From the IMG/VR virus record IMGVR_UViG_3300013094_000026, positions 32,480-96,479 of that record: DNA of 64,000 nt, one strand, 5' to 3'. Positions 47,640 to 59,583 of this stretch are shown piece by piece (within the stretch, counting starts at the first letter, position 1; every line of letters begins with the position of its first letter). The DNA comes from a virus. The notes beneath the pieces were generated by a model that saw nothing but the letters and a program-made list of their open reading frames with translations, was not told where the DNA came from and did no database searches. A program made the translations under genes and the position numbers.

Positions 47640-47862
47640 TTGTTTTGTCCTTGTCTTGTTGAGCGAATACCAAATCATAGCATAGTGTATAGAAAGTTGT
47701 CAAGCAATCTCTATACCCGTCCATATAATCATTTTGTGACTTATCATTAATAGATTCATCATACTCTTGTACTACCAACATGTGATTTAACAACTCCCCT
47801 TGCATGATATCAATTAAGGGGATGTTATGATTAATTAAATTTAGTTGTCGTTGGTCAAGCAT
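47632..47862 (-). CDS. Hypothetical helical protein (76 aa)
   Basis: Start at 47862 (MLDQRQL) behind GGTGGAAG; the longer frame to 47946 is antisense-like overlap with the upstream gene. Helical, acidic; no motif. It overlaps both neighbours. Confidence 0.55.
   Translation of the reverse strand: MLDQRQLNLINHNIPLIDIMQGELLNHMLVVQEYDESINDKSQNDYMDGYRDCLTTFYTLCYDLVFAQQDKDKTND
47674..47703 (-). promoter_or_regulatory. Sigma70-type promoter
   Basis: TTGACA (47698-47703), an 18-nt spacer, TATGAT (47674-47679). Confidence 0.65.
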
Positions 47863-48553
47863 TGGCTTCCACCTTGTGTTCTGCACAACCCTCTTCACCC
47901 GTGCCATTACCACAAGTAGGGCAAATATAATCTCCGCATTCATCACAGAAATTTACATCAGGGTCATTTGGCTCCATGTAGTCACACTCCATGCACTTCC
48001 AGTTCCATTCAGTGCCGTCTAAACGTTCTCCACGCAGGTACTCATGCTCTCCACCCCAGCCTGTCTCCTCTTCATATGACAACGTGAAAAGCAGGTCAGG
48101 ATACTGTGCAGACAACTCAGCCAAAGCCTCGTCAGGAATGGACCAAGCAGTATTAAAGTTATAATAAACTACATAGTTCTCACCATTTTGGACGGGACCT
48201 TCAATATATGTATCTGGATTACTATCTTCATTAGATACAGAAACATCCCACTTAACTCCCCAATGGCGGTTATTCCAAGAATACCAGTCATTGCCTTCAA
48301 ACTTAATTTGTTCTGAAATTGGCAAAGAATGATTAGGTTGATTTTCATATGCCTCTAAGTCTGTTGGTTTAATTATATTCCAAAAAGAAAAAACGGGATT
48401 TGAATATAGGACACGCTTTTTCTCTATCTTATTAGTCTCTGAATTCCATTGGTCATGAATACGACTATATGGCTTATTCATTTGTGCAACAAGTTTGTTA
48501 ATAGAAGATTCATTGCCTTCTATAGTTAATCCATTATATACCCAGTTTGGCAT
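47855..48553 (-). CDS. YubB/DUF1281-like ferredoxin-fold protein (232 aa)
   Basis: MPNWVYNGLTIEG at the start, NNRHWGVKWDVSVS near residue 92 and FNTAWSIPDEALAELSAQYP near 133 are the Api92/YubB domain signature. A C-terminal six-to-eight Cys zinc module (CMECDYM, CDECGDY, CPTCGNG) is fused. These proteins are common in phages and plasmids; their role is not established. Confidence 0.8.
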   Translation of the reverse strand: MPNWVYNGLTIEGNESSINKLVAQMNKPYSRIHDQWNSETNKIEKKRVLYSNPVFSFWNIIKPTDLEAYENQPNHSLPISEQIKFEGNDWYSWNNRHWGVKWDVSVSNEDSNPDTYIEGPVQNGENYVVYYNFNTAWSIPDEALAELSAQYPDLLFTLSYEEETGWGGEHEYLRGERLDGTEWNWKCMECDYMEPNDPDVNFCDECGDYICPTCGNGTGEEGCAEHKVEANA

Positions 48554-48586
48554 TATACTTTCTTTCTACTAGTTGGGTTAATAGGG

Positions 48587-48751
48587 TTATTCTATTATTT
48601 CAGATTCATCTATGTCAAGTTCCTCCCCCATAACTTCCCAATCACTATAAGGTAAGTCATAGGCAATTAACTCAGCATTAGTATTATTATCAGCCTCAAC
48701 CTCTATCTCTAGGTGTTGGACTTTGGTTGCGAATACACGATATTTTGTCAT
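48587..48751 (-). CDS. Hypothetical acidic protein (54 aa)
   Basis: Leaderless: TAGAAT (48758-48763) ends 6 nt before ATG 48751. N-terminal beta strand then acidic tail (YSDWEVMGEELDIDESE). The shape is like small DUF-type phage antitoxins, but no motif is firm. Confidence 0.6.
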   Translation of the reverse strand: MTKYRVFATKVQHLEIEVEADNNTNAELIAYDLPYSDWEVMGEELDIDESEIIE

Positions 48752-48757
48752 AGTGTT

Positions 48758-48787
48758 ATTCTACCACTCACCACTGACATTGGTCAA
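48758..48787 (-). promoter_or_regulatory. Leaderless minus-strand promoter
   Basis: TTGACC (48782-48787), an 18-nt spacer, TAGAAT (48758-48763). Confidence 0.6.
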
Positions 48788-49006
48788 GGCAGGGGCGGGC
48801 GTGTCTAAATTATGGTCTTCATCAAATTCTCTATGATAAGCTTCTAAGGTATATACAGTAAAGTTATATCCACTAGAATAAGCAAATTTAATTGCATCAT
48901 GTAATAGATATGTTTCATAAACTAAAGAATCATTTAATAAAACTTCAAATGAATTAATCCCACCTGGTGAGACTGAATAATCTATTTCGTAAATTTTAAG
49001 TTCCAT
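48761..49006 (-). CDS. Hypothetical protein (81 aa)
   Basis: Beta-rich start (LKIYEIDYSVSPGGINSFEVLL) and a central helix; like small regulatory or binding proteins. The TAGGAT box ends 6 nt before ATG 49006, so leaderless. Confidence 0.6.
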   Translation of the reverse strand: MELKIYEIDYSVSPGGINSFEVLLNDSLVYETYLLHDAIKFAYSSGYNFTVYTLEAYHREFDEDHNLDTPAPALTNVSGEW

Positions 49007-49012
49007 AGCTGC

Positions 49013-49042
49013 ATCCTATCATTCGTAAAGGGGTTTTGTCAA
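49013..49042 (-). promoter_or_regulatory. Leaderless minus-strand promoter
   Basis: TTGACA (49037-49042), an 18-nt spacer, TAGGAT (49013-49018). Confidence 0.65.
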
Positions 49043-49073
49043 GTGGGTCGTAAAAGGAATTTTGAGGGTGGGT
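49023..49073. repeat. Triple TCGTAAA elements
   Basis: TCGTAAA occurs three times (about 49023, 49048 and 49066) just upstream of the promoter at 49013-49042; the same element is scattered at 46.7, 51.4 and 52.7 kb. Confidence 0.45.
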
Positions 49074-49086
49074 CGTAAATGGTTTT

Positions 49087-49209
49087 TTAGCTGAAATACC
49101 CCTCAGCCCATAGGCCTTCAAGAAAGGTCCTTGCTTTGAGCAGATTAGCTGCTATTTGCACCTGGCCTGGTGGGATGTAGTGGACCCCATACCCAATTGC
49201 ATCAATCAT
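49087..49209 (-). CDS. Hypothetical small protein (40 aa)
   Basis: Begins MIDAIGYGVHYIPPGQ; no strong ribosome site. Downstream of and close to the 49224 gene. Confidence 0.5.
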   Translation of the reverse strand: MIDAIGYGVHYIPPGQVQIAANLLKARTFLEGLWAEGYFS

Positions 49210-49223
49210 TTCATTTAAATCAG

Positions 49224-49424
49224 TTAACTCATACCCCAGCAAAATTGCACCCATTCCCAGTCATTTATAGCTAATAACACTTTCAATATGTCCCAGCCCT
49301 CTTCAACCAGTCGCTCATGAAGCTTTTTGTGCATGTAATTAAATGCCTGCTCACACTGTTCTTGTGTCCATTCAGGCTTTAATCCTTGAACGTCCTTCCA
49401 AGAAAATCCTGCTACATCAGACAT
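49224..49424 (-). CDS. Hypothetical Trp-rich protein (66 aa)
   Basis: Helical with five Trp; ATG 49424 overlaps the upstream stop. No motif. Confidence 0.6.
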   Translation of the reverse strand: MSDVAGFSWKDVQGLKPEWTQEQCEQAFNYMHKKLHERLVEEGWDILKVLLAINDWEWVQFCWGMS

Positions 49425-49761
49425 TCACTTCCTCCCTATGATAATTTGCAAAGTAATCAAAGGAATGTGTTCCACTGTCATCTGTAACTGTTTTATTAGA
49501 TAAGTCAATTTCTACATTTGTCTCGCCTTCATATCTAGACGTTCCCGCCCATAAGCCATAGCCCAGCTCGCTGTCCCAGTCCTGTCCAATCAACTGTGAG
49601 ACAAGAATACGGGCAAGGTAGGTCTCATCATTCCAGCGTGGACGGGCTTTGTCAATGGCATGAGCCAAATCCTCATGCATGCTAGTTTCTCCCCAATGAC
49701 TATATAAACTAATATAATTGCCATCAGCCTGCTTAAAATTAAATACTACTCTTTCTCCCAT
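49417..49761 (-). CDS. Hypothetical protein (114 aa)
   Basis: A beta-rich start (RVVFNFKQADGNYISLYSHWGE) and a DDSGTHSFDYF end, a pattern seen in several phage proteins of unknown role. Shares a base with the upstream stop. Confidence 0.6.
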   Translation of the reverse strand: MGERVVFNFKQADGNYISLYSHWGETSMHEDLAHAIDKARPRWNDETYLARILVSQLIGQDWDSELGYGLWAGTSRYEGETNVEIDLSNKTVTDDSGTHSFDYFANYHREEVNV

Positions 49762-49832
49762 TATTTATACATTCCAATCACTAATAAAATTGATAAAACT
49801 ATTGGTACTACTATAAGTATTATTATGTCCAT
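49761..49832 (-). CDS. Membrane micropeptide (23 aa)
   Basis: ATG 49832 follows GATAGGAT; a single hydrophobic helix (IIILIVVPIVLSILLVIG). It overlaps the next start. Confidence 0.5.
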   Translation of the reverse strand: MDIIILIVVPIVLSILLVIGMYK

Positions 49833-49885
49833 GTGGGTATCCTATCAGAAAGTGGGGGGATAATCAAATCCCCCCAGCCTGTTAA

Positions 49886-50299
49886 TTAGAGATATTTTGC
49901 AATAGACTTGAAGGTAGATGTAGAAACAAATTCCTCATCTGTCATCTTTAGAATACGAATTGCATTTTCAATTTCTTCTACAATTTCCTTATACTGCCAA
50001 TCTGCAATAGTTTCAAAGCCACGCTCAGGCTCAGAAGGAACATCTACTGCACCAGCCTTAAACTCAAAACTGACAACAATATCACCACTCCAACGCTTGT
50101 TGATACTTTGCTCGCTTGACTTTGAGAAATTAGCAATAGCAATTTTAGCAACTTCATGTTGCCACTTCTTGTGCAACTTATCAAACTTTTCTTGATTTAC
50201 TTTTTCATTTGCTTTGTCTGTCTTTACTTGCTTCAACTTGTCCTCTAGTGACTTGATAACTTTAGGTGTTGCTACTTTTACATTTATTGCTCGTGACAT
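49886..50299 (-). CDS. Hypothetical coiled-coil protein (137 aa)
   Basis: Start MSRAINVK at 50299 after AAGGAAATA. A frame extending to 50356 reads MSDPP, but those codons are the TGTCAGACC promoter element. Residues 15-55 form a charged coiled coil. No family recognised. Confidence 0.65.
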   Translation of the reverse strand: MSRAINVKVATPKVIKSLEDKLKQVKTDKANEKVNQEKFDKLHKKWQHEVAKIAIANFSKSSEQSINKRWSGDIVVSFEFKAGAVDVPSEPERGFETIADWQYKEIVEEIENAIRILKMTDEEFVSTSTFKSIAKYL

Positions 50300-50333
50300 A
50301 TTATTTCCTTTTCTTTGTTGGGTTAATGGTTGT

Positions 50334-50355
50334 ATTATAGCAGGGGGGTCTGACA
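50334..50355 (-). promoter_or_regulatory. TGTCAGACC-class promoter
   Basis: TGTCAGACC (50347-50355), a 7-nt gap ending TGC, TATAAT (50334-50339). No -35 hexamer at the usual distance. Confidence 0.8.
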
Positions 50356-50622
50356 TTACCGCCGAGTAATAGTGGTAGGTCTATGGGTTGTGGCGTATCT
50401 CACCTCATGCTTTGGCAAGTCACCAGATACATATTCAGTTTGTTGTGAATATAGGACTTTGCCCTGAAATGCTACACACATCTTTGTTAGTTTATTTATA
50501 TCAGAACCAGTAATCTTAACCTGAAGATTATCCAGCACTTCATATTCAATTCCATATTGAATGCACTTACCCAATCCATAGCCCATTTGGGCTTTGGACG
50601 GGACTTGAAGCTTTACTATCAT
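50356..50622 (-). CDS. Hypothetical protein (88 aa)
   Basis: Mostly beta-rich (VKLQVPSKAQMGYG, EYEVLDNLQVKITG). Start at 50622 after GGAAGGCAAAAC. No family recognised. Confidence 0.6.
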   Translation of the reverse strand: MIVKLQVPSKAQMGYGLGKCIQYGIEYEVLDNLQVKITGSDINKLTKMCVAFQGKVLYSQQTEYVSGDLPKHEVRYATTHRPTTITRR

Positions 50623-50633
50623 GTTTTGCCTTC

Positions 50634-50750
50634 CTACTCTAAATAATCAACATACAGGTGTTTATCTTGTTTTACACAACTGGCACAAATATACCAGCCC
50701 CCGTCAAACATTGAAAACTGGGCGGGATTTTTACAGAACACACAATCCAT
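50634..50750 (-). CDS. Zinc-knuckle protein (38 aa)
   Basis: MDCVFCKNPAQFSMFDGGWY, then ICASCVKQ: C-x2-C and C-x2-C, a complete small zinc ribbon. AAGGGGTAATA precedes it. Confidence 0.65.
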   Translation of the reverse strand: MDCVFCKNPAQFSMFDGGWYICASCVKQDKHLYVDYLE

Positions 50751-50752
50751 TA

Positions 50753-51355
50753 TTACCCCTTCTGTACATTTTCTACATAATAATCATTGATAGAGATAGC
50801 AGAATCATATGAGTCAAGTGTCATATTATTTGTAACAAAGTCAGACATATCAAAATCATCACCAAGTGTTAAATCAACTTCAACAGTTGAAGTAACTTGA
50901 ATATTGAAAGTAACTTCAACTTCCTGAGTTAATGGAATGTCCATGATTTCTGCAACACCCTTGATTACTTCTTCTTTATCAATATATTCATCTGAATAAA
51001 CTTCTGTAAGATATGAACGGAGTTGATTTTCTTTTGCATAATTTTCATTTTGCTTTTTATACATAGACTTATTTGACCATTGCATTGAACGAACATCATT
51101 TTCTGTATATGTCTTTGTGACAGTTTCATTATTTTCAAGCCACTCTAGGGTCATTGTTTGAACGGGAGTTTCCATAGTTTCTTCTTCTTTCTCTTTAGGC
51201 TGTATTGTAACATCTACCACTGACATTAGAATCATTGGTTCTTGACATTTTGGACAATCTGAATTGTGATATGTACCACTAGATTTAATATTCATTTCAA
51301 TATTTGAATCACAATATGGGCATACATAATCCCATTTGAACCAAGTATCTGACAT
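50753..51355 (-). CDS. Zinc-ribbon N-terminus plus beta domain protein (200 aa)
   Basis: CPYCDSNIEMN and CPKCQEP give an N-terminal ribbon (residues 12-37); the rest is acidic, alternating strands and helices. It is a paralogue in style of other zinc proteins here. Promoter at 51383; CRP-type site upstream. Confidence 0.65.
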   Translation of the reverse strand: MSDTWFKWDYVCPYCDSNIEMNIKSSGTYHNSDCPKCQEPMILMSVVDVTIQPKEKEEETMETPVQTMTLEWLENNETVTKTYTENDVRSMQWSNKSMYKKQNENYAKENQLRSYLTEVYSDEYIDKEEVIKGVAEIMDIPLTQEVEVTFNIQVTSTVEVDLTLGDDFDMSDFVTNNMTLDSYDSAISINDYYVENVQKG

Positions 51356-51382
51356 TTAGTTTTCCTTTCATTTAAGAACTGA

Positions 51383-51448
51383 ATTCTACCATATCGTAAA
51401 ATGATTTTCAAGTTGAAATACCCTATATCGTAAGTGATAAATATCACA
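51383..51448 (-). promoter_or_regulatory. Promoter with CRP/GlxR-type operator
   Basis: TTGAAA (51406-51411), a 17-nt spacer, TAGAAT (51383-51388). The operator AGTGATAAATATCACA (51433-51448) is centred 55 bp from the -10 centre. Confidence 0.6.
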
Positions 51449-51500
51449 TCGTAAACCCGTGTTTTGACTTGACAAGACACGCCCGAGCGGGTCGGCCCAT
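51433..51500. repeat. Composite repeat R1 (operator + hairpins)
   Basis: Operator, TCGTAAAC, then a degenerate hairpin arm and GACACGCCCGAGCGGG, then TCGGCCC. Least conserved of the five copies. Confidence 0.7.
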
Positions 51501-51546
51501 TTTTCTGCATTTGTCAAATCAACACGCCGTTAAAATAAAAAAAATA

Positions 51547-51568
51547 TAGGGGAGCTTTCGCTCCCCTA
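51547..51568 (-). terminator. Terminator for the DUF932 gene
   Basis: TAGGGGAGC/GCTCCCCTA around TTTC, followed on the minus strand by a T-rich run. Confidence 0.85.
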
Positions 51569-51577
51569 CTTTGCAAA

Positions 51578-52615
51578 TTATTTTGCAAGTGCTAAAACTT
51601 GCTTAACAATTTTATTTTTTTCTGCCGTGATTACAGGGTCAAAACCTGAAGCGGAAGCCATTAAACTATCTCCTGCTTTACGGGCTGTGCGATAGTAGTC
51701 AAGTCGCTCGGTCATTGCATTTAACACACCCCATGCAGTGCCTTTGATATTAGCATTAGTAGGTGAGTTATGATAAAGTTCATCAAGCAACACAACTTTA
51801 TTTTCCCACTTTTTAATTGAACCCTTTTTATCTGCTTCAGGCTTTGGATACATCTTGTTAATGATTTCAGAAAACTTTGCATTAGTAACTTCAATAGAGA
51901 AAAGTTCCTGTGCTTGCTTTTCAAATTCATCCATGTAAGAGAATGTCAAGCCTAGAGCCTCTCGTGCAGCCGCAATTTTTCCGTCTACTGTCTGAGTGTG
52001 GCGGATTTTGAAAGATTGCTTTGCTCGCTTCATGGCAAAGTTAAGAGTGTTTTGACACATAACACGAACAGGTGTGATTGCAGATTGAACCGCAACGGAA
52101 CCATCGTGAGAGGTGTAAACAACTAGATAAAGATTAGTCTGATCGTTAGCACCTTGTGGATCTAGCACCATTGTGCGGGGAATTGACATTGTGCCAAACA
52201 CTACACGACCATTTTTAAGTGAACCAGCAGACTCCCAATAAACATCTGAGTTACCATCATGCAAGTTATCAGCGAAAGAAAATAAATCTTCATTTTGTAC
52301 AGACTTGTAGCGTGAACCTACAACGGACAAAACATCTTTTTGACCTTGAATTTCAGGGTTATCACGCACAACTAGAAAATTCTCTCCTACTTGTGAATAA
52401 TTACCTGCAAGTAAACCACTTACAGGCTCAAGTGAAACATTCCAGTTTGCAAGTTTTGCACCTTCAAGCATTTTGGCAGTAGTGACTTCTTCATCTTTTG
52501 AAAAAGTAGCATTAGCAAAAGAATGCCATGCAGGATTTGAACGGAGATTTACAGCGAGAGATACAGCACCAGACTCAACTTCTGAGCGGTGGACTTGTGA
52601 CATTGGGTTAGTCAT
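51578..52615 (-). CDS. DUF932 phage/plasmid protein (345 aa)
   Basis: Family landmarks: SNPAWHSFAN near residue 28, the FLVVRDNPEIQGQKDVLSVVGSRYKSVQN region near 83-110, and the VQSAITPVRVMCQNTLNFA block near 178. DUF932 is common on plasmids and phages; its function is unknown. It has its own TGTCAGACC-class promoter and CRP-type site and is the largest protein of the block. Confidence 0.9.
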   Translation of the reverse strand: MTNPMSQVHRSEVESGAVSLAVNLRSNPAWHSFANATFSKDEEVTTAKMLEGAKLANWNVSLEPVSGLLAGNYSQVGENFLVVRDNPEIQGQKDVLSVVGSRYKSVQNEDLFSFADNLHDGNSDVYWESAGSLKNGRVVFGTMSIPRTMVLDPQGANDQTNLYLVVYTSHDGSVAVQSAITPVRVMCQNTLNFAMKRAKQSFKIRHTQTVDGKIAAAREALGLTFSYMDEFEKQAQELFSIEVTNAKFSEIINKMYPKPEADKKGSIKKWENKVVLLDELYHNSPTNANIKGTAWGVLNAMTERLDYYRTARKAGDSLMASASGFDPVITAEKNKIVKQVLALAK

Positions 52616-52648
52616 TTTTTCCTTCTTTCTTGTTTGTTTAATAATCTG

Positions 52649-52745
52649 AGTATAACAGATGGGTCTGACATTGTCTAGTTAAACTTACAAACATTTTGAC
52701 ATATGTCGTAAATGTCCGATTTTTTTGCATGTGATAAATATCACT
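52649..52745 (-). promoter_or_regulatory. TGTCAGACC-class promoter with CRP-type operator
   Basis: TATACT (52649-52654), a 7-nt gap, TGTCAGACC (52662-52670). The operator TGTGATAAATATCACT (52730-52745) is centred 86 bp from the -10 centre. Confidence 0.75.
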
Positions 52746-52796
52746 TCGTAAACACGGCGTGTCTGCTTGACAAGACACGCCCGAGCGGGCCGACCC
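52730..52796. repeat. Composite repeat R2
   Basis: Operator, CGTAAACACGGCGTGTC, GACACGCC hairpin arm, GCCCGAGCGGGC, CGACCC. Confidence 0.8.
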
Positions 52797-52829
52797 GATT
52801 TTTTGGGTTTTGTCAAGTTCAACACGCAG

Positions 52830-52934
52830 CTATTTTTTATTAATTTTATCAGGACCTAAATCAATTAAAAATCCTATAAAATAAAAAATTGCAAATACTG
52901 AAAAATATAAAAATATATCTGACAGTATTTGCAA
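52830..52934 (-). CDS. Possible membrane micropeptide (34 aa)
   Basis: TTG 52934 follows GGGAGAA with good spacing; the peptide has one hydrophobic segment (FLYFSVFAIFYFIGFLI). The same DNA also forms a 13-bp inverted repeat that may act as terminator for the 52945 gene. Confidence 0.45.
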   Translation of the reverse strand: MQILSDIFLYFSVFAIFYFIGFLIDLGPDKINKK

Positions 52935-52944
52935 TTTATTCTCC

Positions 52945-53160
52945 CTATTGTAAAATTCCCCAGTACTGCATTCCTAATTCATCTGCAACATATCTTGGAA
53001 CATCGGACCAAGCTGTTTCGTTATAAAAATATTTTGTTCCCTTGCCTTTTATAACTACTTTAAAAAATATGTCATCATTTCCATCTTGATAAACTTTTAC
53101 TTTATCATCACAAAACATGGAGTGCCAATTGGCACTCCCTACGGGTGGGTGTTTAGACAT
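52945..53160 (-). CDS. Hypothetical protein (71 aa)
   Basis: Beta-rich (VKVYQDGNDDIFFKVVIKG) with a C-terminal W-G-I-L-Q. It starts 1 nt after the upstream stop. No motif. Confidence 0.6.
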   Translation of the reverse strand: MSKHPPVGSANWHSMFCDDKVKVYQDGNDDIFFKVVIKGKGTKYFYNETAWSDVPRYVADELGMQYWGILQ

Positions 53161-53161
53161 A

Positions 53162-53635
53162 TTAGTTACCGTCTTCCTGAATTAACTGATCTGCAAATTC
53201 AGCAAGTTTAGTTTCAACTTGTGGGTGCAACTCTTCACGCATAACTTTGAAAGTATCTGCTGGCCAACCTGCTGAAATAACTCGCTTAACCAAATTAGTT
53301 AAATTATAATCTGGCTTGATTTCGCTTGCCACTTCAATTAAACATTGTGAATAATCTAAGTCTCCCAATTCATATTCAAAAATTGATTTAATAGTCAATA
53401 ATGAATAACGCAATTCTTGTTTAGTATTAAACAAAATAGAGGTAACAAATTCTGTAACTTTTTCTAGTGGGTACTTTGTAGGTAATCCCATGATATAGTC
53501 TCGCAACTGAATTTCGTTGTTAATTGCATAGGTAATTTTTTCTGAATCTGCTTCACCAATAGATCCGTCATATGAATTGATAGCATTATCAATTATATCT
53601 TTTGCTTGTCCTACTGTGATAGTATTTACTGTCAT
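53162..53635 (-). CDS. Hypothetical helical protein (157 aa)
   Basis: Start MTVNTITVG at 53635 after AAAGGACATAAA; a frame reaching 53692 begins MSDPS, which is promoter sequence. All-helical, acidic; it resembles regulatory or structural helical bundles but no family is recognised. Confidence 0.65.
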   Translation of the reverse strand: MTVNTITVGQAKDIIDNAINSYDGSIGEADSEKITYAINNEIQLRDYIMGLPTKYPLEKVTEFVTSILFNTKQELRYSLLTIKSIFEYELGDLDYSQCLIEVASEIKPDYNLTNLVKRVISAGWPADTFKVMREELHPQVETKLAEFADQLIQEDGN

Positions 53636-53669
53636 TTTATGTCCTTTGTTTGTTGGGTTAATAATAGAT

Positions 53670-53691
53670 ATTATAACAGATGGGTCTGACA
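53670..53691 (-). promoter_or_regulatory. TGTCAGACC-class promoter
   Basis: TGTCAGACC (53683-53691), a 7-nt gap ending TGT, TATAAT (53670-53675). No CRP-type site nearby. Confidence 0.8.
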
Positions 53692-53780
53692 TTCTTGGCA
53701 GATACCCGTTTTTCCTTCATGATAATTTTGGGTGCAGATACTGCACCCATTAAGACAATCGCCTAAGTGTAGCGTAGTCA

Positions 53781-53978
53781 TTACTCTCCCTCATCATATT
53801 CTAATGATAGAGGGAAAGAATCCCACTCGTGCACTGCCATGTCTTGCTGATCCCAGCATTCAGGGCAGATATAGTCATCGCCATAGATATCATATTCTTC
53901 TTCAGAATAGAATGTCTCAGTTGCTCCACAAAGTTCATAGTAGAGACAGGATACTTCAAAAGTAGTTTGAGTAGTCAT
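53781..53978 (-). CDS. Acidic Cys protein (65 aa)
   Basis: ICPECWDQQDMAVHEWDSF near residues 37-55 and two further Cys (CLYYELC) make a likely zinc site in an acidic protein. Confidence 0.65.
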   Translation of the reverse strand: MTTQTTFEVSCLYYELCGATETFYSEEEYDIYGDDYICPECWDQQDMAVHEWDSFPLSLEYDEGE

Positions 53979-54007
53979 TTTGACCCTTTCGTTTGTTGAA
54001 TAGTAGA

Positions 54008-54072
54008 ATTATAGCAGAGTGGTCTGACATTATCAAGTTATTTTAACATAACTCCATGTGATAAAAATCACC
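54008..54072 (-). promoter_or_regulatory. TGTCAGACC-class promoter with CRP-type operator
   Basis: TATAAT (54008-54013), a 7-nt gap, TGTCAGACC (54021-54029). TGTGATAAAAATCACC (54057-54072) is centred 54 bp from the -10 centre. Confidence 0.75.
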
Positions 54073-54123
54073 TCGTAAACACGGCGTGTCGTGTTGACAA
54101 GACACGCCCGAGCGGGTCGGCCC
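54057..54123. repeat. Composite repeat R3
   Basis: Same order as R2: operator, CGTAAACACGGCGTGTC, hairpin arm GACACGCC, GCCCGAGCGGG, TCGGCCCC. Confidence 0.8.
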
Positions 54124-54132
54124 CAAAAACAG

Positions 54133-54246
54133 CTAATTGTCAAGTTTATTTTTATGTTTTTGTTTGCGTGTATATTTCTTTTTATTAGCAATTGCAGTCG
54201 CAGCATTACTGCGACGCAACTCTTGAATTCTCTTTACTTTTTCCAT
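54133..54246 (-). CDS. Basic micropeptide, paralogue A (37 aa)
   Basis: MEKVKRIQELRRSNAAT, then NKKKYTRKQKHKNKLDN: very basic, probably nucleic-acid binding. A near-identical copy lies at 55844-55960 next to another composite repeat. Confidence 0.65.
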   Translation of the reverse strand: MEKVKRIQELRRSNAATAIANKKKYTRKQKHKNKLDN

Positions 54247-54250
54247 AATT

Positions 54251-54502
54251 TTATTCCTCATAGTATTCGTCATCTTGACACCATGCATCTAAGTGATGCG
54301 ATTTAATAATTGCATATGCTGGAGCAGTTTCTTGATCACGCCATAAAACACCTTCAGGCAATTCAATTTTTCTATCAAGATCAATGTAATGCTCGGGGCA
54401 CCAAGTAGTATTGCCACCATATAAGCGATTGGTGACAGTGCAATATGGGCAGTATCTATACATATAGTTGGTTGTTTTATATTCCTCAATGTCATCGCTC
54501 AT
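54251..54502 (-). CDS. Zinc protein with DLDRKIELPEGVLWR motif (83 aa)
   Basis: CPYCTVTNRLYGGNTTWCPEHY near residues 18-39 is a zinc module (C-x2-C, C-x2-H); the next 15 residues are identical to a segment of the protein at 54732-54983 because of a 47-bp exact DNA repeat. Confidence 0.7.
   Translation of the reverse strand: MSDDIEEYKTTNYMYRYCPYCTVTNRLYGGNTTWCPEHYIDLDRKIELPEGVLWRDQETAPAYAIIKSHHLDAWCQDDEYYEE
54337..54383. repeat. 47-bp exact direct repeat, copy 1
   Basis: Identical to 54782-54828; lies inside two different coding regions and flanks the structured RNA. Confidence 0.85.
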
Positions 54503-54529
54503 TTACATTACCTCATCTAGTTGGTTGGT

Positions 54530-54699
54530 TATATCTACAGCCTACGATTGACTGCAGATGCCTTACTAGTGCATTTCTGGACAGTAAGGAAGGAAGGTTG
54601 ATCGCCTTTTAAGGACACCCAAGGGTGGCTGCGACCCGCTTCCTATTCCTCTAGGGAAACGCACACCATACGGAGACAGTTCGGAGGGCGGGTCTTTGT
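54530..54699 (-). ncRNA. Independently promoted structured RNA (about 170 nt)
   Basis: A consensus promoter (54706-54735) fires into a stretch without a good reading frame. Predicted helices, minus-strand order: GACCCGC (54688-54694) with GCGGGTC (54633-54639); CACCC/GGGTG (54616-54627); CCTTACT/AGTAAGG (54583-54589 with 54561-54567); ATCTGCAG/CTGTAGAT (54552-54559 with 54533-54540). GC is far above its surroundings. It does not look like a tRNA, tmRNA, RNase P or group I intron. The RNA may read on into the 54502 gene. Confidence 0.65.
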
Positions 54700-54705
54700 A
54701 ATTAT

Positions 54706-54735
54706 ATTATAGCATTTTAATATTTACTTTGTCAA
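54706..54735 (-). promoter_or_regulatory. Consensus promoter of the structured RNA
   Basis: TTGACA (54730-54735), an 18-nt spacer, TATAAT (54706-54711), an exact match at both hexamers. Confidence 0.85.
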
Positions 54736-54983
54736 GCAAGTCTACCAGCCAAGGAACAGTAGGCCAGTACGGACATTTCGGCACGCCATAAAACACCTTC
54801 AGGCAATTCAATTTTTCTATCAAGATCATCTTCCCAATATGCATCAATTGCATCTATGCAAGGTTGCACCATAGAACGGGGGACTGGTGGATAGTGATTA
54901 CCCTGTAAGTGAATTGCAATAGAAGAATACATATCTAATCCGAATGTATTATCTGCTAATTCTGTTGCTAAGTTAGATCCCAT
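54732..54983 (-). CDS. Protein sharing DLDRKIELPEGVLWR with its neighbour (83 aa)
   Basis: The N-terminal 50 residues differ from the 54251-54502 product but residues about 54-68 (DLDRKIELPEGVLWR) are identical. The end overlaps the -35 of the RNA promoter. Function unknown. Confidence 0.6.
   Translation of the reverse strand: MGSNLATELADNTFGLDMYSSIAIHLQGNHYPPVPRSMVQPCIDAIDAYWEDDLDRKIELPEGVLWRAEMSVLAYCSLAGRLA
54782..54828. repeat. 47-bp exact direct repeat, copy 2
   Basis: Copy of 54337-54383 in the same orientation, 445 bp away. Confidence 0.85.
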
Positions 54984-54986
54984 TAT

Positions 54987-55181
54987 TTATTTCCCCCTTG
55001 GGCGATAGAAATTCTTTGTGTACATTTTGCCACTAGGCATAGATAGATTATAGGTTGCATATTCTTTTGCAAATCCCCAATCATTGCAACGAGAGAAAGC
55101 ATTGAACGCTTCTAGTGCATCACCAATCTGCACAACATGGTGGGCGGGCTTGCCATCATAGGCTGTTGTTATCTTGTACAT
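54987..55181 (-). CDS. Hypothetical protein (64 aa)
   Basis: YKITTAYDGKPAHHVVQIGDALEAFNAF is a beta-beta-helix pattern typical of small phage proteins; the C-terminus is basic. It abuts the upstream gene (shared base). Confidence 0.65.
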   Translation of the reverse strand: MYKITTAYDGKPAHHVVQIGDALEAFNAFSRCNDWGFAKEYATYNLSMPSGKMYTKNFYRPRGK

Positions 55182-55366
55182 TATTGCACTCCATTCATTA
55201 CTAGATAAACTCTTGCTGATTTAATTTCTTCGGTGGGAATTGCAAATGGATTACACTCGCAACTTTCAACATCATAGTCTTGTCCTCTACCGAAAAAGAA
55301 CCAACCTCTGCCCTCACAAATTGAACATGAGAGAATTTCAATTACTGCATTTTTTACTAGTGACAT
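55181..55366 (-). CDS. DnaJ-knuckle-like Cys protein (61 aa)
   Basis: SCSICEGRGWFFFGRGQDYD has the C-x2-C-x-G-x-G knuckle, and a second C-E-C follows; zinc binding is likely. Confidence 0.65.
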   Translation of the reverse strand: MSLVKNAVIEILSCSICEGRGWFFFGRGQDYDVESCECNPFAIPTEEIKSARVYLVMNGVQ

Positions 55367-55480
55367 TTAATTGTCCTTTCTTGTTTGGCACTTGCATTTA
55401 TTTAATTGTATTGTAGCACCTGCCACTGACATTGTAGCAAGTGTTGAACATGAATCGCATATGAATAAATAATTAGTCAT
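55367..55480 (-). CDS. Small Cys protein (37 aa)
   Basis: Start at 55480 (MTNYLFICDSC) overlaps the upstream stop by 8 nt. CDSC and CKC suggest a zinc site. The longer frame to 55564 is an overlap artefact. Confidence 0.6.
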   Translation of the reverse strand: MTNYLFICDSCSTLATMSVAGATIQLNKCKCQTRKDN

Positions 55481-55679
55481 GATCCACCGCCACATATACA
55501 GTAGTGTAAAAATCAGGCTTAGGAAAACCTTGACCATTCCAATTAGGTCTGACTTGACACGCATAGGCGAACACGCCTTCTGGTGTGTCTACATTCTTTC
55601 GCAATTCTGCAAATTGAATAATTCCTTGACCTTTTGAGGTCTTGACTAACTTGCCCTCTAGGGCTGTTGAGATTAGCAT
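55473..55679 (-). CDS. Hypothetical protein (68 aa)
   Basis: Start MLISTALEG at 55679 after AGAAGG; the frame to 55745 reads through the promoter. Beta-rich with KTSKGQGIIQFAELRK. No family recognised. Confidence 0.6.
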   Translation of the reverse strand: MLISTALEGKLVKTSKGQGIIQFAELRKNVDTPEGVFAYACQVRPNWNGQGFPKPDFYTTVYVAVDHD

Positions 55680-55710
55680 AGGTGCTACCTTCTTTCTTTC
55701 TAATGCCGTA

Positions 55711-55786
55711 AGTATATCAGACTGGACTGACATTATCAATTTCAAAATGCCATAAATCGGACATTAGCTGTGTGATAAAAGTCACA
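55711..55786 (-). promoter_or_regulatory. TGTCAGACC-class promoter with CRP-type operator
   Basis: TATACT (55711-55716), a 7-nt gap, TGTCAGTCC (55724-55732). TGTGATAAAAGTCACA (55771-55786), a perfect match, is centred 65 bp from the -10 centre. Confidence 0.8.
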
Positions 55787-55836
55787 CCGTAAACACGGCG
55801 TGTCGTATTGACAAGACACGCCCGAGCGGGCCGACC
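55754..55836. repeat. Composite repeat R4 with AAATCGGACATT
   Basis: AAATCGGACATT (55754-55765), operator, CGTAAACACGGCGTGTC, hairpin arm GACACGCC, GCCCGAGCGGGC, CGACC. Nearly identical to R5 over more than 80 bp. Confidence 0.85.
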
Positions 55837-55843
55837 AAATTTT

Positions 55844-55960
55844 TTAGCAATTGTCAAGTTTATTTTTATGTTTTTGTTTGCGATTATATTTCTTTTTATT
55901 TCGCATGGGCGTAGCAGAATTGCTACGCCTTAGCTCCTGTATTCTTTTAACTTTTTCCAT
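55844..55960 (-). CDS. Basic micropeptide, paralogue B (38 aa)
   Basis: MEKVKRIQELRRSNSAT, then NKKKYNRKQKHKNKLDN, matching paralogue A at about 30 of 37 positions. Its start shares a base with the upstream stop. Confidence 0.65.
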   Translation of the reverse strand: MEKVKRIQELRRSNSATPMRNKKKYNRKQKHKNKLDNC

Positions 55961-56139
55961 TAGTGATTTGTATTCTTGAAACATTCTTCCCAAAACCTAT
56001 CTGAGTCAAATTTTTCATTATCACTTGCAAACATTTCAATAAAATCATTTACCAAATCTTCTAACACTGTTAGTTTAATTTCATCGGCATATGAATTGAT
56101 AATTTCTGCGGTTGCTACATAGTCTTTTCGTGTCATCAT
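55960..56139 (-). CDS. Small MMTRKDY-family protein (59 aa)
   Basis: Starts MMTRKDYVATAEIINSYAD at 56139; the 57-aa protein at 58187-58360 starts MMTRKDYNKVAEILLSNKGD and is a paralogue. Helical, acidic; family known from actinophages, function unknown. Confidence 0.65.
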   Translation of the reverse strand: MMTRKDYVATAEIINSYADEIKLTVLEDLVNDFIEMFASDNEKFDSDRFWEECFKNTNH

Positions 56140-56223
56140 TTTATTTACTATCCTTTTCATTAAGTGGATTGGGTGAGAGTAGCGGTATTAGTGTTAGTCC
56201 CACCCAAAATTTATTATAGCATA

Positions 56224-56376
56224 TTACTTTGCTCGGCGGTAAGTGTATGAAAGAAAATCTTTCTTATACTTTGCATTTGCATTTGCTGTTTGTACTAGTG
56301 CATGAACCTTTACGGCATTCTTGTCATTGATTGACATTAGTTCACGCTTGCCTTGAGAAATTGTGAAAGTGTACAT
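56224..56376 (-). CDS. Basic small protein (50 aa)
   Basis: MYTFTISQGKRELMSIND, then a helical, basic C-terminus (NAKYKKDFLSYTYRRAK). AAAGGATATAAA precedes it; TATAAT lies at 56407-56412. Probably nucleic-acid binding. Confidence 0.6.
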   Translation of the reverse strand: MYTFTISQGKRELMSINDKNAVKVHALVQTANANAKYKKDFLSYTYRRAK

Positions 56377-56463
56377 TTATTTTATATCCTTTTGTTTGTT
56401 GGGTTTATTATATGGTGAGCAGTTTTACAACTTGCTCAGGTTGTTCTACCTATTTGGTAAAAA

Positions 56464-56625
56464 CTAGAATTTTACTGTGGTGTAGCGATCTTCGCCGTTT
56501 ACATCTAGCAAAACTTTTGTAGTGTTAGCATTGACGGGGATAATTTCCTTAATTGTTCCCGTGACCTTTGACTTTTGAGTGGTGAATAAATCTCCCACTT
56601 GATAAGTTTGATTTGATACTGTCAT
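56464..56625 (-). CDS. Beta-rich small protein (53 aa)
   Basis: YQVGDLFTTQKSKVTGTIKEI and TKVLLDVNGEDRYTTV read as an SH3/KOW-like barrel. Own TGTCAGACC-class promoter. Confidence 0.65.
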   Translation of the reverse strand: MTVSNQTYQVGDLFTTQKSKVTGTIKEIIPVNANTTKVLLDVNGEDRYTTVKF

Positions 56626-56659
56626 TTATTTTTTATCCTTTTCTTTTGTTGTTAGTTGT

Positions 56660-56681
56660 ATTATAGCACTAGGGTCTGACA
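56660..56681 (-). promoter_or_regulatory. TGTCAGACC-class promoter
   Basis: TGTCAGACC (56673-56681), a 7-nt gap ending TGC, TATAAT (56660-56665). Confidence 0.8.
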
Positions 56682-56882
56682 TTATGGTTGAATATCTGAG
56701 CGACACCCAGCATATGGACAACGCACACGACTTAGGCGGTGGGTTGTGTATGAGTATTTAATTGTTCTTGAAATTCTTGCAATATGCGGTGATGACATTC
56801 TAGGAACATGAAAACTCTTAGCATTAGAAATTGACGGGATTAGTGTTAATCCTATTGCAAGTATAATAATTTTAGTTTTCAT
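56682..56882 (-). CDS. Secreted small basic protein (66 aa)
   Basis: MKTKIIILAIGLTLIPSISNA is a typical signal peptide (cleavage after SNA, residue 21), leaving a 45-residue basic, Arg/His/Tyr-rich peptide with two Cys. GGGGAGAAG stands before the ATG. It could act in the envelope or outside the cell. Confidence 0.65.
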   Translation of the reverse strand: MKTKIIILAIGLTLIPSISNAKSFHVPRMSSPHIARISRTIKYSYTTHRLSRVRCPYAGCRSDIQP

Positions 56883-56988
56883 CTTCTCCCCATGTCTTAA
56901 CATCTTGAAAAATCTCTAATATAATCATAGCAAGAAAAGGGACAGATAACATCATGATAAATCTAATAAAGTAAGTTAGAATAAACAT
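56872..56988 (-). CDS. Membrane micropeptide (38 aa)
   Basis: Hydrophobic residues 2-26 (FILTYFIRFIMMLSVPFLAMIIL) and an acidic tail. It shares bases with both neighbours' start and stop codons. Confidence 0.6.
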   Translation of the reverse strand: MFILTYFIRFIMMLSVPFLAMIILEIFQDVKTWGEDEN

Positions 56989-57182
56989 TAATCACCCACC
57001 CCCTCTTGAAATTCTGCAATAGTGCAAGATAAACCAATTAACTCACCCTTAGCACTTACCAAAATTGCATTTACGATATCTTTATCTTCATTGACAATAG
57101 ATATTTCATTGATTAGATAATTTTCATTTTTCCAAATGAAAAGTGTTCCTTGATAAATCTTATTTACTAATCCATGTGACAT
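56988..57182 (-). CDS. Beta-rich small protein (64 aa)
   Basis: Start MSHGLVNK at 57182 after AAAGGACATAAA; the frame to 57233 (MSDLSG) is promoter sequence. KIYQGTLFIWKNENYLINEISIV suggests a small barrel. Confidence 0.6.
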   Translation of the reverse strand: MSHGLVNKIYQGTLFIWKNENYLINEISIVNEDKDIVNAILVSAKGELIGLSCTIAEFQEGVGD

Positions 57183-57210
57183 TTTATGTCCTTTCGTTTT
57201 TGTTAATTGT

Positions 57211-57232
57211 ATTGTACCAGATAGGTCTGACA
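57211..57232 (-). promoter_or_regulatory. TGTCAGACC-class promoter
   Basis: TGTCAGACC (57224-57232), a 7-nt gap ending TGG, TACAAT (57211-57216). Confidence 0.75.
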
Positions 57233-57355
57233 TTAGAGGGCATTTTCTTGAAAAAGTTTTATCTCTAAATGTAGTAATTCATTAGGTGATAAATCTTCAA
57301 GGGTTTTCCAACCTGCACCCTCTTCATCAAGGTAAAAAATTTCTAGGCTACCCAT
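57233..57355 (-). CDS. Hypothetical acidic protein (40 aa)
   Basis: GSLEIFYLDEEGAGWKTLEDL and a C-terminal helix; its stop overlaps the next promoter. No motif. Confidence 0.55.
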   Translation of the reverse strand: MGSLEIFYLDEEGAGWKTLEDLSPNELLHLEIKLFQENAL

Positions 57356-57357
57356 GA

Positions 57358-57519
57358 TTAGTTCCCCCACTCTGTGGAGATGATATCCCAACCGATGGAG
57401 ACTAGGTGGTCTAGTCGCTCAACCAATTCTTTATCAGATGAACCGATGAAGGTTGCACCCATGCGAGAAGGATAGCCGTTAGGCTCTTGGCGAATCGCCG
57501 TATATTTTAGTGAAGTCAT
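57358..57519 (-). CDS. Hypothetical small protein (53 aa)
   Basis: Start MTSLKYTAIRQ at 57519 after GAAAGGAAG; the frame to 57573 (MSDPPD) is promoter sequence. Contains FIGSSDKELVERLDHLVSIGW, a beta-helix-beta pattern. Confidence 0.6.
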   Translation of the reverse strand: MTSLKYTAIRQEPNGYPSRMGATFIGSSDKELVERLDHLVSIGWDIISTEWGN

Positions 57520-57550
57520 TTTAACTTCCTTTCTTTTGTTTAATAGGTTT

Positions 57551-57626
57551 ATTATATCAGGGGGGTCTGACATTTTAGCCCGTTTTTCGGGCGTGTCGGA
57601 AATTTATTTTTGTGACTTACGCCACA
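57551..57626 (-). promoter_or_regulatory. TGTCAGACC-class promoter with CRP-type operator
   Basis: TATAAT (57551-57556), a 7-nt gap, TGTCAGACC (57564-57572). TGTGACTTACGCCACA (57611-57626; one arm mismatch) is centred 65 bp from the -10 centre. Confidence 0.7.
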
Positions 57627-57730
57627 TCACAGCCACAATCTATGGCATATTCATTATGCTCATCACACCAAACACAGAATGGGTGATTTAGACTATTTAG
57701 GACAATTTGTCCACATACACAAGTGTTCAT
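57617..57730 (-). CDS. Cys-rich small protein (37 aa)
   Basis: MNTCVCGQIVLNSL, FCVWCDEH and CGC: a zinc-binding micro-protein. Promoter at 57765. Confidence 0.6.
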   Translation of the reverse strand: MNTCVCGQIVLNSLNHPFCVWCDEHNEYAIDCGCDVA

Positions 57731-57764
57731 ATTTAGAACCTTTCTTTATTTTTAACTTAGCGTA

Positions 57765-57850
57765 AGTTTAACATAAAAAACCCGTACTGTCCAGTAACTT
57801 AAGGGATAATCTCACAATATGGATGCATAAATAATGTGATTAATGTCACA
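57765..57850 (-). promoter_or_regulatory. Promoter with CRP-type operator
   Basis: TGGACA (57788-57793), a 17-nt spacer, TAAACT (57765-57770). TGTGATTAATGTCACA (57835-57850), a perfect match, is centred 75 bp from the -10 centre. Confidence 0.6.
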
Positions 57851-57862
57851 CGTAAAAGGTAT

Positions 57863-57946
57863 AAATCGGACATTAGCTGTGTGATAAAAGTCACACCGTA
57901 AACACGGCGTGTCGTATTGACAAGACACGCCCGAGCGGGCCGACCC
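57863..57946. repeat. Composite repeat R5 with AAATCGGACATT
   Basis: AAATCGGACATT (57863-57874), perfect operator TGTGATAAAAGTCACA (57880-57895), then the same hairpins as R4. Its operator is not in phase with a promoter I can assign. Confidence 0.85.
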
Positions 57947-57986
57947 AATTTTTGGGCGTTTGTCAAGTGCAACACGCCCAAAAGCT

Positions 57987-58085
57987 TTATTTAAAATCTT
58001 TCAAAATATTTTCAACGATTAAAATTTGCTCATCTGTCAAATTTTCAATTTGAATTGCATTTGCAAAATTGAATGGATCATTCAT
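57987..58085 (-). CDS. Hypothetical small acidic protein (32 aa)
   Basis: MNDPFNFANAIQIENLTDEQ: overlaps the upstream stop as ATGA; last of a four-gene operon. Confidence 0.5.
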   Translation of the reverse strand: MNDPFNFANAIQIENLTDEQILIVENILKDFK

Positions 58086-58186
58086 TTATTATTCTCTTTT
58101 CTTTTGTTATTTTCAAAACTATTTTTTTGCATTTGAGCGATTATTTTTAGATCTTCAATCGCTCTTGAAATTTCCTCTTTTTCCAT
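58082..58186 (-). CDS. Small basic helical protein (34 aa)
   Basis: A charged helix (EKEEISRAIEDLKIIAQMQ) and Asn/Lys tail, starting 1 nt from the upstream stop. Confidence 0.5.
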   Translation of the reverse strand: MEKEEISRAIEDLKIIAQMQKNSFENNKRKENNK

Positions 58187-58360
58187 TTAGTTATCTCCAT
58201 AACATGCTAATTCAAATCGCATTGGTGAAAAGTTTTTATTATCATAGAAAAACAAATCTGAAAATTGATCTACAATAGTAGAGAACACGATTTCACTCAT
58301 GTCACCTTTATTAGATAGCAGAATCTCTGCTACCTTGTTATAATCTTTTCTAGTCATCAT
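58187..58360 (-). CDS. MMTRKDY-family protein, second copy (57 aa)
   Basis: MMTRKDYNKVAEILLSNKGD matches the start of the 55960-56139 product. It follows the upstream gene without a gap; helical with an aromatic C-terminal part. Confidence 0.65.
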   Translation of the reverse strand: MMTRKDYNKVAEILLSNKGDMSEIVFSTIVDQFSDLFFYDNKNFSPMRFELACYGDN

Positions 58361-58513
58361 TTACAAAATCTCCTCTAAATCAAAATCTTCTACATCTACG
58401 AAAACATCTGAGTCATCTTCTGACTCTTGATTTAATTCATCTAGCAATTCATCAAAAGTATCTGCTAGGGTTTCCCACTTGTCAAAGTGGCGTTCATGTG
58501 AATAAGTGTACAT
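58361..58513 (-). CDS. Acidic hypothetical protein (50 aa)
   Basis: ATG 58513 follows AAAGGTACACA. Very acidic C-terminal half (ESEDDSDVFVDVEDFDLEE). First gene of a four-gene operon. Confidence 0.6.
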   Translation of the reverse strand: MYTYSHERHFDKWETLADTFDELLDELNQESEDDSDVFVDVEDFDLEEIL

Positions 58514-58625
58514 TGTGTACCTTTCGTTTAATTCGGTTAAACCTTTTAACCTTTTGCTGACCTGTCTTATTTGCTTATATTCTAAGGCTCATACAGGATT
58601 TTTTCTTATTTAATTTTATAGTGGA

Positions 58626-58680
58626 ATACTATCAGACTATAACGGGAAAGTCAAGTCTATTTGGTGTGATGTTTGTCACT
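58626..58680 (-). promoter_or_regulatory. Sigma70 promoter with CRP-type operator
   Basis: TTGACT (58649-58654), a 17-nt spacer, TAGTAT (58626-58631). TGTGATGTTTGTCACT (58665-58680) is centred 44 bp from the -10 centre. The TTGACT-to-operator block is repeated at 58854-58885. Confidence 0.7.
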
Positions 58681-58801
58681 AGTCTAGTGTGCCACCATTG
58701 GCACACCAATTATTAAAACAGACGGGACAACCTAGAGAGATCTGATTCTCTAGTGGGTATTCATGCCCATATGAGCATTTTACTGTATTTAGTGAAATCA
58801 T
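58679..58801 (-). CDS. Zinc-ribbon micro-protein (40 aa)
   Basis: VKCSYGHEYPL and LGCPVCFNNWCA: a rubredoxin-like knuckle pair. ATG 58801 follows AAAGGAAATCAAA. Confidence 0.65.
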   Translation of the reverse strand: MISLNTVKCSYGHEYPLENQISLGCPVCFNNWCANGGTLD

Positions 58802-58830
58802 TTTGATTTCCTTTCTTTTGTTATAGTGTT

Positions 58831-58885
58831 AGTTTATTTTATTAAGTTTTGAAAGTCAAGTCTATTTGGTGTGATATGACTCACA
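58831..58885 (-). promoter_or_regulatory. Sigma70 promoter with CRP-type operator, second copy
   Basis: TTGACT (58854-58859), a 17-nt spacer, TAAACT (58831-58836). TGTGATATGACTCACA (58870-58885; perfect arms) is centred 44 bp from the -10 centre. Confidence 0.75.
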
Positions 58886-59045
58886 CTTTATACCATCTAG
58901 ACAATTTGTAGCCATCGTCAAATCGCTCTATATTTGAGCCACAATCTAGGCAGGTAGTATTCCAAAACTCATGCCATGATTTCTGAGTGTAGATTTCATT
59001 AGCAGTATTAGGATTATGCTTTACGCATTTTGTTATAGTGTTCAT
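58881..59045 (-). CDS. Zinc-binding small protein (54 aa)
   Basis: TKCVKHNPNTANEIYTQKSW and TTCLDCGSNIERFDDGYK: C-x2-H and C-x2-C, a treble-clef-like site. Its leader holds the palindrome TTGACACCTTGTCAA (59064-59078). Confidence 0.65.
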   Translation of the reverse strand: MNTITKCVKHNPNTANEIYTQKSWHEFWNTTCLDCGSNIERFDDGYKLSRWYKV

Positions 59046-59092
59046 TATATGAACCTTTCTTTATTGACACCTTGTCAATTTCTTATAGTGTA

Positions 59093-59178
59093 ACTATAAC
59101 ATGGGGGTGTGACATTTTCAACTCCAAAATGTGTACAAATCGGACATTTTAAAAAATATTTTTGTGACTTGCACCACA
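59093..59178 (-). promoter_or_regulatory. TGTCAGACC-class promoter variant with CRP-type operator
   Basis: TATAGT (59093-59098), a 7-nt gap, TGTCACACC (59106-59114). TGTGACTTGCACCACA (59163-59178; one arm mismatch) is centred 75 bp from the -10 centre. AAATCGGACATT lies at 59137-59148 and 59199-59210. Confidence 0.65.
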
Positions 59179-59379
59179 TTTTGAGGTGCATAAGGTATAA
59201 ATCGGACATTTCGGGCGCACTAAAAATTTTTTGTTTTTTGTTTTGCGGAGTGTATCATACAAAATAAAACTCCATTAACATTTTGGTCAAATTCAATTCT
59301 TAAAATTAGCTGAGAATGTACTATAATGCACAAAATTTACAAAAAATTATGCACTATAATGCAATTTTGCGGAATATTA
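59179..59379. other. AT-rich intergenic stretch
   Basis: It holds one AAATCGGACATT copy and two ACTATAATGCA direct repeats (about 59319 and 59352); no gene seen. Confidence 0.5.
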
Positions 59380-59583
59380 TTAAGATTCTTCATCATTTTC
59401 AAAAATAAATGATGGGGCGGGAGCTAGAACTTGTCCTAATTCATGTAAATTTATCATTTTATCAGTATCAGCACCTAATTTATCAGCAATCATTACTAAC
59501 ATATCATAATTTCTCTGCTCTTGAATAAAAATAGCACCTAAAAGCTCTCTAATATTTTCAAAAATAGGTTTTAAATCATCCAT
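59380..59583 (-). CDS. Hypothetical helical protein (67 aa)
   Basis: Two helices (LKPIFENIRELLGAIFIQEQ, DMLVMIADKLGAD) and a short disordered tail. It abuts the glycosyltransferase gene by a shared base. Confidence 0.6.
   Translation of the reverse strand: MDDLKPIFENIRELLGAIFIQEQRNYDMLVMIADKLGADTDKMINLHELGQVLAPAPSFIFENDEES

Follow-up and report, generated by a model that had tools for sequence, protein, structure and literature searches.

Crp/GlxR-type operators in helical register with the promoters of an actinophage gene block point to activation by a host regulator

In a 64,000-nucleotide stretch of viral DNA (the window; bases 32480-96479 of the 96,479-base IMG/VR virus record IMGVR_UViG_3300013094_000026, the remainder of which was scanned as well), operators of the Crp/GlxR type, TGTGA-N6-TCACA, are confined to one block of small genes, and nine of its promoters have their -10 boxes at distances from an operator that follow the turns of the DNA helix. 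The observation is real and family-wide, extending beyond this single genome. We consider it likely that this phage promoter block is activated from upstream by the Crp/GlxR protein of its host; from the sequences we infer all three parts of this reading, namely host Crp as the binder, activation as its effect, and an early role for the block. Coordinates are window positions unless the record is named, and distances, in base pairs (bp), run from operator centre to -10 centre.

The entire record holds 12 sites with at most one mismatch, 6 of them perfect, and 12 of 12 lie between 46668 and 59178. A Markov model of the 14-kb operator region predicts 0.02 perfect sites and 0.7 with at most one mismatch, and random placement would put all 12 in the block with a probability of about 2e-11. 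An initial reading of the letters alone (the sequence-only reading) had reported at least twelve sites, five to six of them perfect, a count that the recount bears out. It had also named equal site density elsewhere in the genome as a result that would tell against it, and no such evenness was seen, every site falling in one block.

Conservation of the operator was examined in 80 related IMG/VR loci (1.34 Mb in total), found through the DUF932 protein of the block at 52-90% identity. These relatives hold 366 perfect dyads, compared with 0-5 for other gaps and permuted halves, and TGTGA with gap 6 ranked first in a census of all 5+5 dyads with gaps of 0-13. The second-ranked dyad, GTGAT with gap 4 (143 copies), is the core of TGTGA-N6-TCACA; TGTGA with gap 4, considered as a separate signal, was rejected, since 178 of its 188 occurrences overlap gap-6 sites. 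Fifteen large records of 91-120 kb, including this one, carry 2-8 perfect sites each and zero control matches, and their listed site positions fall in a single stretch of ~6-14 kb per record, which in one record spans the contig ends. Separately, several TGTGA-N6-TCACA sites precede TTGACA-type promoters in a second virus, IMGVR_UViG_3300025131_000024 (48% GC), which suggests that operator arrays may extend to further groups of phages.

The block, its operators (given without strand), the -10 boxes that serve them and the DUF932 gene are:

46000..59400, minus strand: small-gene block holding every operator (12 sites); its DUF932 gene is common to phage Samisti12
46668..46683: perfect operator TGTGATTTTAATCACA, without clear nearby promoter
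46696..46711: perfect operator TGTGAAATTTATCACA, without clear nearby promoter
51383..51388, minus strand: -10 box TAGAAT with TGn, TTGAAA 17 bp upstream; serves operator 51433
51433..51448: operator, 1 mismatch, 55 bp to -10, in repeat module
51578..52615, minus strand: DUF932 gene behind operator 52730 (Pfam PF06067, E 3.7e-57; 51% identical to Streptomyces phage proteins)
52649..52654, minus strand: -10 box TATACT with TGn and TGTCAGACC; serves operator 52730
52730..52745: operator, 1 mismatch, 86 bp to -10, upstream of the DUF932 gene, in repeat module
54008..54013, minus strand: -10 box TATAAT with TGn and TGTCAGACC; serves operator 54057
54057..54072: operator, 1 mismatch, 54 bp to -10, in repeat module
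55711..55716, minus strand: -10 box TATACT with TGn and TGTCAGTCC; serves operator 55771
55771..55786: perfect operator TGTGATAAAAGTCACA, 65 bp to -10, in repeat module
57551..57556, minus strand: -10 box TATAAT with TGn and TGTCAGACC; serves operator 57611
57611..57626: operator, 1 mismatch, 65 bp to -10
57765..57770, minus strand: -10 box TAAACT with TGn; serves operator 57835
57835..57850: perfect operator TGTGATTAATGTCACA, 75 bp to -10
57880..57895: perfect operator TGTGATAAAAGTCACA, in repeat module; forms a tandem pair with 57835, lying 45 bp upstream of it
58626..58631, minus strand: -10 box TAGTAT with TGn; serves operator 58665
58665..58680: operator, 1 mismatch, 44 bp to -10
58831..58836, minus strand: weak -10 box TAAACT with TTGACT-like -35; third-ranked candidate for operator 58870
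58870..58885: perfect operator TGTGATATGACTCACA, 44 bp to weak -10
59093..59098, minus strand: -10 box TATAGT with TGn and TGTCACACC; serves operator 59163
59163..59178: operator, 1 mismatch, 75 bp to -10

Recomputation returned exactly the nine distances that had been reported (44, 44, 54, 55, 65, 65, 75, 75 and 86 bp). Five of the -10 boxes were said to be fixed independently by a sequence motif, and this held in full for the three that carry TGTCAGACC; the other two have one mismatch to it (TGTCAGTCC at 55771 and TGTCACACC at 59163). Phase concentration in the window was R = 0.98 for the nine promoters and 0.99 for the five anchored ones (Monte Carlo p ~1e-4). Five of the 12 sites (51433, 52730, 54057, 55771 and 57880) lie in copies of one ~110-nt repeat and are thus not independent in origin. 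The module, which combines TTTACG and the operator with an inverted repeat rich in GC (GGCGTGTC ... GACACGCC), occurs at 51434-51512, 52704-52818, 54031-54145, 55745-55859 and 57854-57968. Its operators stand 55, 86, 54, 65 and 120 bp from their -10 boxes because the parts downstream of the copies differ, and copying alone therefore does not yield the register. Site 57880, at 120 bp, is one of three outside the register picture.

Promoters of the relatives were filtered for similar sequences, leaving 199, 143 or 108 according to stringency, and the register was strong at each level (Rayleigh Z = 86, 49 and 29, respectively). Distances in the relatives peak at 45, 54-55, 64-65, 75-76 and 86 bp, with a best period of 10.3-10.5 bp, and gaps in the filtered promoters peak at 34, 43-45, 53-56, 63-65, 75-76 and 86-87, the centre distance in this set being the gap plus 11. 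Exact TATAAT used as the anchor, without any scoring, gave identical peaks. A rerun with controls (141 promoters) gave Z = 47 and mean phases of 54.8, 65.3 and 75.8 bp, while the opposite strand and permuted dyads yielded few promoters, Z near 1 and no register. In none of the 141-199 promoters was an operator nearer than 43 bp to the -10 centre, and none of the 141 control-rerun promoters had a site at a gap below 30 or an operator overlapping the -35 or -10 box.

The operator upstream of the DUF932 gene is retained in nearly all relatives, and among orthologous promoters with a clear -10 box, 71 of 77 have it at 54, 65-67, 76, 86-88, 97-98 or 108 bp. Among these orthologues, operator distance has thus changed mostly by whole helical turns. 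An IMG/VR-wide scan with the distance left free (operator, 22-52 free bases, TGTCAG-N7-TGnTANNNT) also recovered phased spacings: gaps of 28 (34 promoters), 38 (53) and 48/49 (19) prevail among the 139 matches listed, and the 40 promoters left among them when redundancy was removed gave R = 0.72 and Z = 21. Two broader scans were less informative. With canonical TTGACA promoters the IMG/VR scan mixed unrelated phages and phasing was weak (Z = 4.3), and a class-wide search of actinomycete genomes for operators upstream of TANNAT boxes returned 24 matches, too few for a phase comparison.

The core promoters carry an element of their own: TGTCAG(ACC) lies in the promoter spacer, ~16 bp upstream of an extended -10 box (TGnTATAAT), on the minus strand of the window (50347, 52662, 53683, 54021, 56673, 57224 and 57564) and in relatives, where 127 of 319 non-redundant promoters of this type have an operator within 120 bp. 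Another element, CGGACATT-NN-GGACA, stands between operator and promoter upstream of the DUF932 gene (for example, in loci L010 and L090 near 2223). It is common to many freshwater phages and the operator-less Samisti12, and is possibly a second, older regulatory element.

The mechanism that we propose begins with a dimeric GlxR/Crp-type activator of the actinobacterial host, bearing the helix LVGASRETVNKALADF, which would bind TGTGA-N6-TCACA. Once bound, it would aid host RNA polymerase at sigma-70-type promoters whose -10 box sits downstream on a single helical face, at 45, 55, 65, 75 or 86 bp, and these promoters would drive a small-gene block that appears to be the counterpart of a Streptomyces phage terminal repeat and is probably early. 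Activation is proposed because the operators never overlap core promoters and the register is strict, at 45-87 bp. The argument is an anatomical one: simple repressors occupy promoters and have no need of a register, whereas upstream activators require one.

No Crp helix-turn-helix (HTH) domain was detected in this record or in 43 related viral records, and since the HTH_Crp_2 search can miss weak Crp proteins, it was repeated with a Crp protein as query; no Crp-like protein was found among 21,566 open reading frames (ORFs) of the phage loci, with 12 of 12 positive controls recovered. With no Crp detected in the phages, host Crp becomes the clearest candidate for the binder. A small-genome actinobacterial family, that of bin G045, was sampled for it. 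A cNMP-binding match above the cut-off was present in 93 of 121 genomes, nearly always in ORFs of ~230 residues, and all 12 of the family Crp proteins that were read carry the helix LVGASRETVNKALADF or its beginning; the nearest structures to the one compared were mycobacterial Crp and GlxR. An earlier Crp-like match in Actinomycetota bin G045 itself was rejected as a GntR protein, and it was the cNMP-binding domain that led to the GlxR-type Crp of the family. By sequence and structural likeness, then, small actinobacteria of the sampled family, candidate hosts of the phage, encode a GlxR-type Crp. That actinobacterial GlxR/Crp proteins bind this palindrome, as the sequence-only reading had stated, agrees with binding of TGTGA-N6-TCACA by the Crp proteins of M. 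smegmatis (PMC12713383).

Several results weigh against activation by host Crp. The spacing had been claimed to be exactly that of class I activation, and here the period matches and the absolute phase does not: E. coli class I CRP optima lie at -61.5, -71.5/-72.5 and -82.5, activation being nil at -66.5 and close to nil at -76.5 (PMC6301791). With the -10 centre set at -9.5, these optima correspond to ~52, 62-63 and 73 bp, some 3 bp short of the phage values of 54.8, 65.3 and 75.8. The phage promoters share with class I the dyad, a position upstream of the -35 box without overlap and helical periodicity, and differ in phase; since the period fits and the geometry does not, we describe them as working like class I promoters and not as members of the E. 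coli type. Phasing also has exceptions, with 6 of 77 DUF932 promoters out of phase, at 92, 94 or 101 bp, and a half-turn minority (gaps 33/34) of 16 among the 139 IMG/VR-wide matches listed. In the window, sites 46668 and 46696 lack a clear promoter and lie outside the register picture, in a non-coding stretch separating convergent gene blocks. Samisti12, read over 116 of its 134 kb, showed zero perfect operators, so that the operator system would belong to the freshwater clade.

On the bacterial side, no dyad enrichment or regulon was seen in the sampled G045 family or in one nearly complete member genome, and a search confined to class III adenylate cyclases found none in 61 genomes of the family. 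The member genome, G119 (1.2 of 1.41 Mb), has 5 one-mismatch sites with gap 6 compared with 23 for gaps 5 and 7 (P = 7e-6), and near-perfect TGTGA-N6-TCACA is possibly avoided there; in the wider class, the dyad is commoner than its control in larger genomes. Crp in the G045 family may work without cyclic AMP (cAMP), or cAMP may be made in another way. That the block is switched by host cAMP signalling, as first proposed, is a weak conjecture.

Some of these results lend weight to a different binder, in which a phage-encoded regulator of another fold would bind the palindrome and activate, the likeness to Crp sites being convergent. Most phage proteins are without family, a WhiB and a PHROG "DNA binding protein" are encoded, the dyad regulon is not visible in the sampled bacteria and the absolute phase is unlike that of E. 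coli CRP. We nevertheless judge this unlikely. The dyad is the exact actinobacterial Crp consensus, whose known readers are Crp-family helices; no HTH regulator family was among the 25 top Pfam families in a scan of most of the record's proteome, which did list WhiB; and early genes would require a factor that is present ahead of phage protein synthesis.

Repression by Crp or another protein, for instance to keep the block off in starved cells, has a precedent in coliphage T1, where cAMP-CRP directly represses the pir, dam and recE promoters (PMC6737242). It seems improbable here, with 0 sites overlapping a -35 or -10 box in 141-199 promoters and a strict register that simple repression does not need. 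It is more improbable still that the main role of the sites is that of a sponge, titrating host Crp after multiplication of the phage genome. A phage genome has as many as a dozen strong sites, which, set beside the scarcity of near-perfect sites in the bacterial genome (5 vs 23), would suit such a role, but a sponge requires neither a promoter register nor confinement to the promoter regions of one block. Chance helped by duplication, to which the repeat-borne sites (5 of 12) and the four -10 boxes chosen by eye might seem to point, is scarcely credible given identical peaks in redundancy-filtered relatives and in machine-defined promoters across IMG/VR, and the differing distances of the module copies.

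Activation from upstream by host Crp/GlxR is thus the reading we prefer. A fuller account, possible but held tentatively and short of an even chance, is that an actinophage clade built what is probably its earliest block as a host Crp regulon, with operators selected and re-spaced by whole turns, perhaps without a cAMP signal and with a polymerase contact unlike that of E. coli.

Gene content and order identify the virus as a Stanwilliamsviridae-like actinophage. Its genes run in the order of those of Samisti12 (Stanwilliamsviridae, host Streptomyces griseus) through glycosyltransferase, portal, capsid, tail, helicase, polymerase and RecA, with primase, DUF932 and WhiB also shared, and DnaE is 53-56% identical to that of Streptomyces phages; a megablast search with 25 kb found no match among named phages. 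WhiB was found in this record and in 17 of the 18 related viral records searched, and in the control set only Corynebacterium matched. The gene in the window is:

36200..36523, plus strand: WhiB gene, an actinophage marker that matches the WhiB gene of Samisti12; its WhiB domain lies at record 68727-68900

A Methylophilaceae or cyanobacterial host, suggested by the bin labels of DUF932 relatives L087 and L088, was rejected as probable mis-binning because the phages carry WhiB. The phage also encodes an HslV/proteasome-type peptidase (37524-38063) and Hsp20 (31865-32389), and Cpn10, ferritin-like and thioredoxin families are present in its proteome.

Samisti12 carries its DUF932 block at both genome ends, and by analogy we infer that 46-59.4 kb is the counterpart of a terminal-repeat block, present as a single copy in this record. 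Terminal repeats of other large phages, such as SPO1 and T5, hold early takeover genes, and by the same analogy the block is probably expressed early. A DUF3800-IX RNA (Rfam RF02968, 56.7 bits) also lies within it, at 54629-54694 on the minus strand.

If host Crp drives this block, the physiology of some freshwater actinobacteria would gate an important step of infection, and more than 100 non-redundant spacings would constitute a natural experiment on actinobacterial Crp activation, whose geometry becomes directly testable with ready-made promoters. The combination of phased TGTGA-N6-TCACA, TGTCAG and TGnTATAAT also provides a sequence signature with which to find such phages.

Compared with known systems, the virus resembles Stanwilliamsviridae (Samisti12, Jay2Jay) in gene order, DnaE identity, the DUF932 block and WhiB, and differs from them in its operators, of which Samisti12 showed no perfect copy in the part read. 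The takeover modules of SPO1 (terminal repeat) and T5 (pre-early) are similar in having a terminal-repeat-type block with numerous small genes, of which several have promoters of their own; they use host polymerase and are not known to have a phased host activator. Lac-type class I CRP promoters of E. coli share the palindrome, an operator upstream of the core promoter and whole-turn spacing, whereas the phage promoters have a phase ~3 bp longer, an extra 45-bp class, TGTCAG and TGn in the core promoter and a viral setting, and their activation is predicted. Actinobacterial Crp/GlxR regulons (M. smegmatis Crp1/Crp2, C. glutamicum GlxR) share the TGTGA-N6-TCACA target (PMC12713383), and the candidate bacteria encode this type of Crp; the phage sites are viral and not chromosomal, and the sampled family showed no dyad regulon. 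The sequence-only reading was aware of no phage regulon described as switched by host cAMP signalling, a claim that T1 narrows, since host CRP acts there on phage promoters as a repressor, and that would stand for activation of a block: the literature searched, in which many subscription journals are missing, yielded no case of Crp or GlxR activating a block of phage genes. As in T1, host CRP is predicted here to act directly at phage promoters, but T1 presents a few repressed promoters of an E. coli phage, whereas the phased upstream array described here points to activation.

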